Part shown: positions 7,817 through 43,378 of the stretch, piece after piece
Position numbering within the stretch: position 1 is the stretch's first letter
Layout of the letters: every line of letters starts with the position of its first letter
From: Synechococcus sp. CBW1002
GTDB lineage: Bacteria; Cyanobacteriota; Cyanobacteriia; PCC-6307; Cyanobiaceae
DNA length: 64,000 bases
Assembly: GCF_015840915.1 (NCBI RefSeq)
Contig: NZ_CP060398.1
Span: 1 to 64,000, forward strand
Direction of reading: 5' to 3'
Program-made: the position numbers and the translations under genes
The notes under the pieces: generated by a model
What the model was told of the DNA's origin: nothing
Database searches by the model: none
Seen by the model: the letters and a program-made list of their open reading frames with translations, nothing else

Positions 7817-8605
7817 TCAGAGGCGACGGGTGACGCCGGTGCAAACCAGGGCGGGCTCGACCTCGCCATGGGGACGGGCAATGATGTGGGCCGCCACCAG
7901 GCCGTCACCGACACGCTCACAGGCATCGGCACCGGCCCGGACCGCGGCGTTCACAGCCCCGGTTTCGCCACGCACCATCACGGTGACGTAGCCACCACCG
8001 ACGAATTCCCGTGAGATCAGGGTGACTTCCGCGGCCTTGGTCATGGCGTCGGCGGCTTCGATCGCGGGAACCAGGCCACGCGTCTCGATCATGCCAAGGG
8101 CGATGCCCTGTACGGAGGAAGCCATCGGAAAGGAAGGAGAAGCGGAACGGTTGGGAGGGGTGAGGCTGGAGGAGCCGCCGCCCGTGGCAGCGGAGGCAGC
8201 GGCACGACCGGAACCAGAAGCCCGGCCAGTGGAGGCACGGCTGGCGGCGGGGCGGGTCGCAGCCGAGCGGCTGACGGCCCGGGTGGTGGAGGTGCGAGCC
8301 ATGGCGGTACGGGAAGAAGGGACGCGGGCAGCGGCAGTGGAGCGAGCGCTGCTGCGCTTCGCCGGAGTGGTGGGGGCAGCAGTCAGTGAACTGGCGGCAG
8401 GGCTATCAGTGGTCGAAGGGGTGGGCAGGGCCTTGGGTGAGGTGGAGCCCTTGGACTCAGTGGAGGCCATGGGCGCCGTCGCGCTGACCACGGCCTCCGC
8501 AGGAGCGGGGGCAGGGGCCTCTGCAGCGGGAGTGACGGCAGGGGCTGTCTCCGCAGACGGGGCCGGGGTGGATCCGGCGGCGGGGCTGGGCGTCGGGGTG
8601 GCCAT
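7817..8605 (-). CDS. csoS1E: Carboxysome BMC shell protein with long basic N-terminal extension (CsoS1E)
   Basis: The 262-residue protein has a BMC-H domain from residue 161 to about 252 that is nearly identical to CsoS1 in this window (MIETRGLVPAIEAADAMTKA, VRGETGAVNAAVRAGADACE). A 160-residue low-complexity extension comes first. Residues 1-80 are Ala/Pro/Thr/Ser-rich; 83-136 are rich in Arg, Ser, Ala and Thr and strongly basic. This layout matches CsoS1E of some Synechococcus/Cyanobium strains. The BMC domain should tile into the shell facet, leaving the tail free to contact cargo, RNA or CsoS2 (inference). No good ribosome site is visible before the ATG at 8605. Confidence 0.9.
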   Translation of the reverse strand: MATPTPSPAAGSTPAPSAETAPAVTPAAEAPAPAPAEAVVSATAPMASTESKGSTSPKALPTPSTTDSPAASSLTAAPTTPAKRSSARSTAAARVPSSRTAMARTSTTRAVSRSAATRPAASRASTGRASGSGRAAASAATGGGSSSLTPPNRSASPSFPMASSVQGIALGMIETRGLVPAIEAADAMTKAAEVTLISREFVGGGYVTVMVRGETGAVNAAVRAGADACERVGDGLVAAHIIARPHGEVEPALVCTGVTRRL

Positions 8606-15471: not shown

Positions 15472-15783
15472 TCAGTCCTTGGAACCGACGAAATTGCCGT
15501 TGCCCAGGGCGGGCTCAACCTCGCGGTGGGGGCGGGCAATGATGTGGGCGGCCACCAGGCCATCACCCACGCGCTCGCAGGCATCGGCGCCAGCACGAAC
15601 GGCCGCGTTCACAGCGCCGGTTTCACCACGGACCAACACGGTCACGTAACCGCCGCCCACGAACTCACGACCGATCAGACGCACTTCAGCGGCCTTGGTC
15701 ATGGCATCGGCTGCTTCGATCGCCGGCACCAGGCCACGGGTCTCGATCATGCCGAGGGCGATGCCCATGGTTTCGTTTGCCAT
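15472..15783 (-). CDS. csoS1A: Carboxysome major shell protein CsoS1
   Basis: This 103-residue single-domain BMC-H protein forms the hexamers that tile the shell facets. It contains the canonical IALGMIETRGLVPAIEAAD and FVGGGYVTVLVRGETGAV segments. The ATG at 15783 begins MANETMGIALGM and is preceded by an AGGAG ribosome site about 9 bases upstream. The frame is open to 15852, but that stretch is not family sequence. It is the first gene of the operon. Only one simple csoS1 gene is present; the near-identical BMC copy lies in csoS1E. Confidence 0.96.
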   Translation of the reverse strand: MANETMGIALGMIETRGLVPAIEAADAMTKAAEVRLIGREFVGGGYVTVLVRGETGAVNAAVRAGADACERVGDGLVAAHIIARPHREVEPALGNGNFVGSKD

Positions 15784-15799
15784 TACCTGCTCCTGAAGG

Positions 15800-15815
15800 A
15801 GGGGGTGGAATGTTC
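15800..15815 (-). promoter_or_regulatory. 16-base element in the csoS1 leader, shared with sbtA
   Basis: AGGGGGTGGAATGTTC (plus-strand reading) at 15800-15815 is repeated exactly at 17601-17616 upstream of sbtA, in the same orientation relative to the gene. Its core GAATGTTC is an imperfect dyad. Here it starts 17 bases upstream of the csoS1 start codon, so it is probably in the transcribed leader. A regulatory role is inference only. Confidence 0.45.
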
Positions 15816-15892
15816 GTCCGTAACCATGGTCTGCAGCCATTCCCTCCGTCAAGCCGTTGACAGGGCTTGCGCCATCACCGTTTCCGCATTGA

Positions 15893-16056: not shown

Positions 16057-16338
16057 TCAGAGGGGCTGGGCGTCGGAGACGAAGCCAACGCCGCCGTAGT
16101 AGTTGAGCAGGGGCCGCAGTGCTGCACGGATCTGCTCCAGCACCTCCGCCTCGCAGAACACGATCACATGGGCGTTGGCGCCGTAGCCGCTCATCTCCAT
16201 CGATTCCTGCACCTCACCCCCCTTTCCCACCCCGGTGACATGGCGCATCACCGAGTAGCCGGGAGCTCCGGCGGTGCGCAGAGCCGCGCAGATCGGGCCC
16301 AGCTCCCGCTCTCCCAACAACAGATCGAGACGTTTCAT
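16057..16338 (-). CDS. sbtB: PII-like regulator of the bicarbonate transporter (SbtB)
   Basis: This 93-residue PII-like protein is encoded directly after sbtA, as is typical of SbtB. SbtB trimers bind adenine nucleotides and cap or inhibit SbtA. The ferredoxin-like fold is visible as an N-terminal strand MKRLDLLLGEREL, the stretch GAPGYSVMRHVTGVGKGGE leading into the T-loop, and the final ALRPLLNYYGGVGFVSDA. It ends right after that strand, so the C-terminal redox loop with paired Cys seen in beta-cyanobacterial SbtB is absent. The ATG at 16338 was chosen because upstream codons are not family-like. Confidence 0.88.
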   Translation of the reverse strand: MKRLDLLLGERELGPICAALRTAGAPGYSVMRHVTGVGKGGEVQESMEMSGYGANAHVIVFCEAEVLEQIRAALRPLLNYYGGVGFVSDAQPL

Positions 16339-16446
16339 CGGACAGGCCTGAGAGGCAAAACGAACGGTGGCGCGAGACAGTGACGCAGAACGGCGACGCC
16401 AGGCAGCGACAGCCTGGGAAAACCGGGGACACCGCCCTCCCAATCC

Positions 16447-27473: not shown

Positions 27474-28307
27474 ATGAACGGGCCCCAGCATCCTGTACGG
27501 GACGGCAGCACAGCACAGGTCTGGCGCCTGCTGCCGGATTCGGCGCTCACCGGAACCTGGCAGATGGCGATCGATGAGTGGATACTCGATCAGGGCCAAC
27601 CGGCCCTGCGTCTCTACCGGTGGAGCCGCCCCACCCTGTCGCTGGGCTACCACCAGCGGCGTCTGCCGCCCCACTGGCTGGCCCTGGCGGCGGACGGCCT
27701 GATCGACCTGGTCCGCAGGCCCACTGGCGGCCGGGCGGTGCTGCACGGCTGCGGCGATCTCACCTACGCCCTGATCTGGCCCGATCCCCCTGGCCAGCGC
27801 CTGGAGGCCTACCGCCTGGCCTGCCGCTGGCTGCAGCACGCCTTCGCCGCCCTGGGGCTGCCGCTCCAGTTCGGCAACGAGTCAAGCGGCTCCCAGGGGG
27901 CCCATGCACCGAACTGCTTTGCCAGCGCCACCGCGGCGGATCTGGTGGACGCCGCTGGATTCAAGCGGATCGGCAGCGCCCAGCTCTGGCGCCGCGGCCA
28001 GCTGCTGCAACACGGCGCCATCCTGGTGACGCCGGAGCCGGAGCTGTGGCGGCAGATCTTCGGGGAACCTCCGCCGCCGCCGCCGGCAGGACGACTCAGC
28101 AGCAACCTGGGAGTGGAGGATCCCCACCATCCGCTCCGGCAACAACTGCTGACCGCGGCCCGGTCGGCCCTGCCGGGCGCTCCGGTCGTGCTGCAACCCC
28201 AGCCGCTCAGCGACACCGAATGGAACGCTGTGGAGGGGCGGCTGCAGCGCTACAGGGAAGGGCTGACGCTCACTTCCCCGGAAGCCACCATTGAGCGCGC
28301 CACCTGA
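27474..28307 (+). CDS. Lipoate-protein ligase / octanoyltransferase family (BPL_LPL)
   Basis: This 277-residue BPL/LPL-fold protein attaches or transfers lipoyl or octanoyl groups to E2 and GcvH proteins. The key motif RRPTGGRAVLH is near residue 85, followed by the lysine-containing KRIGSAQLWRRGQLLQHGAI. Whether it is LplA-, LipM- or LipL-like cannot be settled by eye. The ATG at 27474 is preceded by a weak TGAGG. The last 58 bases overlap the end of the convergent M50 protease gene. Confidence 0.85.
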   Translation: MNGPQHPVRDGSTAQVWRLLPDSALTGTWQMAIDEWILDQGQPALRLYRWSRPTLSLGYHQRRLPPHWLALAADGLIDLVRRPTGGRAVLHGCGDLTYALIWPDPPGQRLEAYRLACRWLQHAFAALGLPLQFGNESSGSQGAHAPNCFASATAADLVDAAGFKRIGSAQLWRRGQLLQHGAILVTPEPELWRQIFGEPPPPPPAGRLSSNLGVEDPHHPLRQQLLTAARSALPGAPVVLQPQPLSDTEWNAVEGRLQRYREGLTLTSPEATIERAT

Positions 28308-41500: not shown

Positions 41501-42336
41501 ATGACCCTGCATGCCACCTATTTCGGCGCCAACGGCTGGCTGCTGGAGTTCGAGGGGCTGCGGGTGCTGGTCGATCCCTGGCTCACCGGCCCCCTGCGCT
41601 TTCCCCCCGGCGACTGGTTCTTCCGCGGCGAACTGCCCCACCCCTGGCCCGTGCCGGAGGGTCTGGATCTGCTCCTGCTCACCCAGGGCCTCCCCGACCA
41701 CTGCCATCCGGCCTCCCTGTCGCTGCTGGATCGCCAGCTGCCGGTGGTGGGCTCCAGCAGTGCCGCCGCCAGGGCCCGGGCCCTGGGTTTCACGCGGGTG
41801 ACGGCCGTCAGCCCGGGTCAGGAGCACAGCCATGGCCCCCTGCAGATCCAGGCCACGGCCGGGGCACCGGTGCCCCAGGTGGAGAACGGCTACCGCCTGG
41901 TGCATCCCGCCGGGTCCATCTACCTGGAGCCCCACGGCTTTCTGGCCACGGATCCCGCCACGGCGCCCCGGGGCCCGGTGGATGTGGCGATCACACCGGT
42001 GGTGGATCTGGGCCTCCCCCTGGCCGGAGCCTTCGTGAAGGGCGCCCAGGTGCTGCCCCAGCTGCTGGAGCGGCTGCAACCGGCGTGGTGCTGGCCAGCA
42101 CCGCCGGCGGCGACGTGCGCTTCCAGGGCTGGCTCAGCCAGATCCTCTGGCAGAAAGGCTCCACCGAGCAGGCCGCCGCCGTCGTAGGCGCCGCGACGGT
42201 GAGCGCCACGACCGCGAGCGGAGGGAGCTCGAGCGGCTCCATGGGCGAGACCGGCCCAGAGCGTTGCCGGCTCATTGATCCCGTGCCCGGCGAACGGTAT
42301 GTGCTGTCGGGCTGCGCAACCACAACGCCGGTCTGA
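41501..42336 (+). pseudogene. Metallo-beta-lactamase-fold protein, frameshifted
   Basis: The frame from ATG 41501 encodes an MBL-fold protein of a cyanobacterium/plastid family: TLHATYFGANGWLLEFEGLR, then VDPWLTGPL, and LTQGLPDHCHPASLSLLDRQ as the metal-site loop. Near 42076-42085 family sequence moves to the -1 frame, where LASTAGGDVRFQGWLSQILW continues to a stop at 42336. A single-base deletion would explain this. Read through, the protein is about 278 residues. It could be a true inactivation or a sequencing error; the neighbouring MscS gene has the same kind of lesion. Confidence 0.8.
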
Positions 42337-42347
42337 GGGTTCAAGCC

Positions 42348-43378
42348 GTGCCAACCTCCGGCTGGTGGAGCGACCCCCTGGTGGCCAAGCTGGCCACGGC
42401 GCTGCTGGGCGTCGGCGCATTGATCCTGTTGGTGCGGCTCACCCAGGGCTCCCTGATCCGCCGGCTCGACGACCGGGACAGCCGCTACTACGGCCGCAAG
42501 CTTGTGAGCCTGAGCGGCTACGCCGTGGGCATCGTCTTTCTGTCCCTGGTCTTCAAGGACCGACTGGGGGGCTCACGGTGGCGATCGGTGTGGCCAGCGC
42601 CGGCATTGCCTTCGCGCTGCAGGAAGTGATCGGCAGCGTGGCCGGCTGGATCGCCATCTCCTTCGGTGGCTTCTACAAACCGGGGGATCGGGTGCAGCTG
42701 GGCGGCATCAAAGGCGATGTGATCGACATCGGGATCCTGCGCACCACTTTGATGGAACTGGGGGAATGGGTGGCCTCCGACCTCTACACCGGCCGGATCG
42801 TGCGGATCGCCAACAGCTTCGTATTCAAGGCACCCGTGTTCAACTATTCCGGCGACTTTCCCTTCCTCTGGGATGAGATCCGCCTGCCCGTGAAATACGG
42901 CAGCGATCACAACGAAGCCCGCCACCTGCTCGAGCAGGTGGGTGCCGAAGTGGCCGGCGACGCTATCACCACCTCAGCCCGGGTCGCCTGGAGCGTGATG
43001 GTGCACAAATACCTGCTGGAGAACGCCACCCTCGAACCCCAGGTGACCCTGGTGCTGACCGACAACTGGATGGAATTCACGCTCCGCTATCTGGTCGACG
43101 TGAAACGCCGCCGTTCCACCAAGGACCACCTCTACACCCAGCTGCTGGATGCGGTGAACCGGCCGGGCAGCCGCGTGCAGCTCGCCTCCACCACCGTGCA
43201 GCTGGTGGACGCACCGCCCCTGGACATCCGCATCAGCCAGCCCCAGGCTGGTCAGCGCCCGGAGGGTGCTGCCGCAGCCAGCGAATCACGGCCTGGCGCA
43301 GATCTCCGGCCGGAGCAATCACGTCCACCCCGGCGGCCCCCTGGCGCAGAAAGCCCAGATTCACCTCCTGGCCGGTGA
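42348..43378 (+). pseudogene. MscS-family mechanosensitive channel, frameshifted in a G6 run
   Basis: The frame from GTG 42348 gives two or three N-terminal membrane spans (GALILLVRLTQGSLIRRLDD and SLSGYAVGIVFLSLVFKD), then breaks at the G6 run 42566-42571. In the next frame the MscS pore and cytosolic domains continue: VAIGVASAGIAFALQEVIGS, FYKPGDRVQLGGIKGDVIDI and RIVRIANSFVF. One extra G would restore a protein of about 343 residues. The second frame then runs 146 bases into the opposite-strand 5'-nucleotidase gene, and its last 45 or so residues look non-native. Confidence 0.82.

Follow-up and report, generated by a model that had tools for sequence, protein, structure and literature searches.

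The window (the whole 64,000-base stretch analysed here, bases 1-64000 of a single-contig, 3.85-Mb genome that is 99.74% complete) contains an MscS-type channel gene, with a GTG start at 42348 and a stop at 43378, that is broken by a one-base frame change at a run of six G (G6). This is probably a very recent and ordinary event, in which a one-base deletion inactivated an accessory MscS-type gene belonging to an MBL-MscS unit that is dispensable in the genus. Comparison with Synechococcus sp. CS-1328, the only other genome of the genus in the searched set, overturned the homopolymer reading of the locus: CS-1328 lost the same pair of genes in other ways. The finding is an ordinary one, a recent loss within a set of redundant channels; it would add one more example of the turnover of MscS copies in picocyanobacteria, and the locus should not be catalogued as a switch.

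The two-gene unit (a gene for an MBL-fold hydrolase, then the MscS gene) would have become dispensable in the genus, with redundancy among MscS channels relaxing selection, and the loss of function in the window strain would be a recent event, separate from that in CS-1328. The channel would now be off, with an N-terminal fragment lacking the conserved 3' region remaining, and the G6 run would be incidental, not a switch.

Reading frames of the MscS gene

The claim of the initial annotation that the G6 run at 42566-42571 breaks the MscS gene was borne out. The upstream frame, with codons counted from 42348, gives a 93-aa product whose stop ends at 42629, the downstream part runs uninterrupted in the -1 frame between 42566 and the stop at 43378, and the N-terminal part and the remainder of the channel do not share a single frame, the break lying at 42566. 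The intact MscS protein of Cyanobium sp. CH-040 matched both pieces in tblastn, in two frames that meet at G6, with 172 of 227 residues identical in the 3' part. The closest relatives by this gene were picocyanobacteria of the Synechococcus/Cyanobium kind. With this identity to an intact orthologue and an MS_channel_2nd domain in the 3' part (PF00924, Pfam E-value 1.3e-9, 38.5 bits against a curated cut-off of 20.2), the gene is like MscS-type channels, from which it differs in the break between its N-terminal part and the rest. The addition of one base at G6 would fuse both frames, as had been claimed for one extra G, but the base that was lost was not necessarily a G, judging from the site bases of relatives (see below).

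The final 146 bases of the MscS frame (43233-43378) also belong to a convergent 5'-nucleotidase-like gene. In CS-1328 this overlap contains 45 additional bases, and both frames are still open there.

Table 1. Features of the MBL-MscS locus. Positions are those of the window.
Feature	Position	Strand	Basis
MBL-fold metallohydrolase gene, 5' part (Lactamase_B_3, PF13483)	41501..42084	+	Pfam (E-value 1.1e-16)
One-base deletion in the MBL gene, CCGGC-GTGGTG	42083..42086	+	DNA alignment with three intact relatives
MBL gene, 3' part, -1 frame; end resembles the usual C-terminus of the family	42085..42336	+	tblastn with the CH-040 protein, alignment
MscS 5' part with out-of-frame tail, 93 aa	42348..42629	+	Translation, tblastn with CH-040
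Imperfect 8-base repeats CCGACTGG (42560-42567) and CCGGCTGG (42642-42649), 82 bases apart	42560..42649	+	Sequence and BLAST coordinates
G6 run at the one-base frame break; alignment gap immediately before the run (CT-GGGGGG)	42566..42571	+	Sequence, alignment
MscS 3' part, PF00924; alignment to CH-040 stops near 43246	42566..43378	+	Pfam, tblastn

The upstream MBL-fold gene

The second one-base lesion, previously placed 490 bases from the G6 run, is indeed present, some 482 bases upstream of the run at 42084/42085; it lies, however, in the MBL-fold gene and not in the channel. The whole broken MBL-fold gene spans 41501-42336; 148 of 215 aligned residues of its 5' part are identical to the intact CH-040 protein, and the 3' part alone had no Pfam match. 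The alignment with three intact relatives revealed no homopolymer at the lesion. Relatives of the MBL gene were found in 208 of 300 family genomes and 43 of 59 genera (window genome counted), and an MscS gene stood downstream of the MBL gene in 7 of the 29 best-scoring other loci of this search; the MBL frame was not read in one of these 7 (L176). Of 92 invariant columns, 5 are altered in the window MBL protein; among 28 other genomes, 27 have 0 to 3 such deviations and the remaining one has 10. The 5 deviations in the window may be taken as a slight sign of relaxation.

Orthologues at the break site

A relative of the MscS gene was found in 21 of the 300 family genomes (8 of 59 genera), the window genome, CS-1328 and 19 others; since only these 21 carry one, the orthologue is accessory. 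Eighteen of the 19 others were examined (G099 was left out), all from other genera, and all 18 were open through the break site (15 genomes by the site motif and 3 by protein alignment). The window MscS, set against these open orthologues, carries a frame-disrupting lesion, as a pseudogene would. All 16 loci bearing the motif were open through the junction; these represent 15 genomes, since two of the loci (L011 and L182) are one contig. The three loci without the exact motif had an unbroken alignment to the CH-040 protein and stand outside the count of site bases.

Comparing strains at the run had been proposed earlier, and the run proved neither kept nor variable in length among the relatives: a run of at least five G or C was absent from the site in 15/15 genomes whose site bases were displayed. 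Nine of them read CTC GGC/GGT GGx, five CTG GTG GGx and one CTG GGT GGC, compared with CT-GGGGGG in the window. Because the sites of relatives read in these ways, the base that is missing could be either a G of the run or the third base of the leucine codon, and a G7 ancestor would be unnecessary.

Loss of the gene pair in CS-1328

Over 64 kb CS-1328 and the window are collinear, their large blocks being about 91-93% identical, except at the MBL-MscS locus, where CS-1328 has about 165 bases compared with about 784 in the window (a net loss of about 619 bases). The MBL protein had no match in the CS-1328 genome at an E-value of 1e-20 and no significant tblastn match at the CS-1328 locus, and the MBL gene is read as gone there, save for what looks like a trace of its start. 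The MscS gene of CS-1328 is interrupted by an in-frame TAG and lacks 82 bases; this deletion ends at the G6 site of the window and is bounded by the two imperfect repeats seen in the window, CCGACTGG and CCGGCTGG. The lesions by which the pair was lost in CS-1328 are thus other than those of the window, and its MscS gene appears to have been lost earlier.

Constraint and age of the lesion

Omega for MscS between the window and CS-1328 was 0.31, compared with a median of 0.11 over 54 neighbouring ORFs, only 3 of which were higher. Twelve of 120 columns that are invariant in nine other genomes were altered in CS-1328; the window MscS was altered at 2 of the 120, both in common with CS-1328, and had zero private changes. 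In a leave-one-out control the nine other genomes deviated at 0 to 8 of 142-150 columns (8/150 in CS-1330), and the value of CS-1328 is high, yet not far beyond that of living genes. The changes that could be polarised were 8 nonsynonymous and 16 synonymous on the branch of the window, 18 and 11 on that of CS-1328 (Fisher p 0.054 for the contrast), and 32 were ambiguous. With no private change at an invariant column and an 8:16 ratio on its own branch, the window MscS thus seems to have been constrained until recently. The same MscS lesion might also have been shared by descent with CS-1328, where it would not be readable because the CS-1328 deletion takes out the site of comparison itself, but constraint was unlike on the two branches, which speaks for separate events of loss.

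The highest omega among the 54 neighbouring ORFs (0.48) was that of a 135-aa ORF at 27809-28216 on the minus strand, which had no Pfam match.

Decay or assembly error

An error of sequencing or assembly, in which both genes would be intact and two bases dropped from the consensus, is unlikely, and was judged less likely than decay. Homopolymeric G runs are a typical spot for dropped bases on some platforms. The MscS break adjoins such a run, the MscS pieces are otherwise well conserved, and constraint does not distinguish a consensus error from a very recent lesion. Against this, the MBL lesion lies outside any homopolymer, and two errors would need to hit exactly the pair that was also lost in CS-1328. 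The 54 open ORFs of the window (57.1 kb) contain 40 other six-base runs of G or C, although these ORFs were picked as open and are circular as a test of error.

The ORFs of CS-1328, mapped onto the window genome, provide a fairer test. Fifty-three of them (51.3 kb) mapped inside the window, with 3 flagged for start-site or antisense effects, and none of the 53 had a mid-gene break in the window, which also argues against error. A wider scan (244 kb vs. 213 kb, with 186 kb aligned and 158.5 kb of ORFs) flagged 20 of 159 CS-1328 ORFs on the window genome and 22 of 163 in the opposite direction; all of the 20 were inspected by frame segments, 6 of them also base by base, together with 3 of the 22. 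In one of the 20 the window genome clearly changes frame in mid-gene, at a place outside the window, and another, in a strongly diverged gene, had mixed frames; the remainder resembled start-site extensions, wrong-strand ORFs, short ORFs or clusters of alignment gaps. Assembly-wide indel errors are not favoured, although the one clear case means that such frame changes have a background above zero. At one lesion per 158.5 kb, the probability of two lesions in the 1.76-kb pair is 6e-5 (rising to 2e-3 if the rate is set to its upper 95% limit), and that of both window lesions falling within the pair is 0.0009 under uniform placement over the coding bases of the window; clustered errors in a poorly covered patch fall outside these values.

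A 585-aa gene that is open in CS-1328 has a frame change in the window genome at about 3757732 (locus L139), due to two extra bases (GATCTCGAG vs. GATCGAG) with no homopolymer; the change is unpolarised.

The initial annotation had preferred error or local decay to a switch. Its suggestion of decay is the better supported, because the congener lost the same pair through different lesions, while error ranks below it. The window genes are like recent pseudogenes of accessory genes in bacteria in their single-base breaks, in that a sister lineage lost these genes as well and in the presence of paralogues elsewhere in the genome; they differ from them in that two adjacent genes are hit and in that the MscS gene is little further decayed.

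Possible switching and recoding at the G run

A reversible off state of a hypo-osmotic release channel, reached by slippage between G6 and G7 or relieved by low-level -1 rescue at CTG GGG GGC, with the gene permanently lost in the sister lineage, is very improbable. Taken by itself, phase variation, in which slippage of the G run would toggle the channel on and off, must be regarded as highly improbable. A one-base change in the run would restore the frame, and the MscS gene looks constrained until recently, both of which speak for it. However, the run is absent in the relatives, the adjoining MBL gene is broken without any repeat, and CS-1328 lost its MscS through a deletion. Moreover, GGGGGG is under-represented in the window (50 matches on both strands, in 44 runs of 6 or more G or C, vs. 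143.5 expected from dinucleotide shuffles), and the run is unremarkable as a feature of the sequence. The six Gs also fall short of the homopolymer cut-off of seven G/C that is used for phase-variable genes of Campylobacter in PMC6321876. The poly-G genes of Campylobacter are like the window gene in having a G run at a frame break, and unlike it in the length of the run, in its absence from relatives, in its lack of enrichment and in the lost base, which may not have been a G. The ON/OFF switch proposed earlier is consequently not supported. The literature search found no work joining mechanosensitive or MscS channels with phase variation and homopolymeric tracts, and no title on this locus among the matches listed.

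Programmed -1 frameshifting or transcriptional slippage, by which the G6 allele would yield a full-length channel, is hardly credible. Slippery heptamers for -1 frameshifting have the form X XXY YYZ, which CTG GGG GGC fits in the upstream frame, and the 115 bases downstream fold somewhat better than shuffles (z -1.97); but similar folding was seen in six relatives that can do without a frameshift (z -1.98 in one, -1.48 to +0.19 in the other five), so that no stimulatory structure exceeding theirs was found. In addition, 21 sense-strand runs of at least six G occur within the 54 open ORFs of the window, and 14 of these share the codon phase of the G6 run; the MBL lesion has no such slippery site. 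With a fold no better than that of relatives and same-phase runs in open ORFs, programmed frameshifting is not supported.

Other MscS genes and neighbouring features

The window genome has 8 MscS-domain matches, the broken gene and seven others. Two NCBIfam MscS models scored far under their curated cut-offs on the window gene (29.8 of 321 and 23.4 of 400 bits), and for this reason it is classed as a putative MscS-like paralogue rather than the equivalog of the E. coli channel. The presence and absence of 24 MscS channels among strains of picocyanobacteria have already been described (PMC9361551).

One of the seven other MscS-domain matches (3417229-3417420) comes from a fragment of 106 aa. 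It lies at 1429-1749 of locus L113 (3415729-3418920), directly after a DDE transposase gene of 408 aa, which suggests an older, insertion-linked loss.

The minus strand of the window carries two genes with a BMC domain (bacterial microcompartment shell), at 7817-8605 and 15472-15852, and each matches the CS-1328 counterpart of the other (84-85% over 263 bases). They presumably belong to a carboxysome cluster, and a P-II-like gene follows them at 16057-16443.
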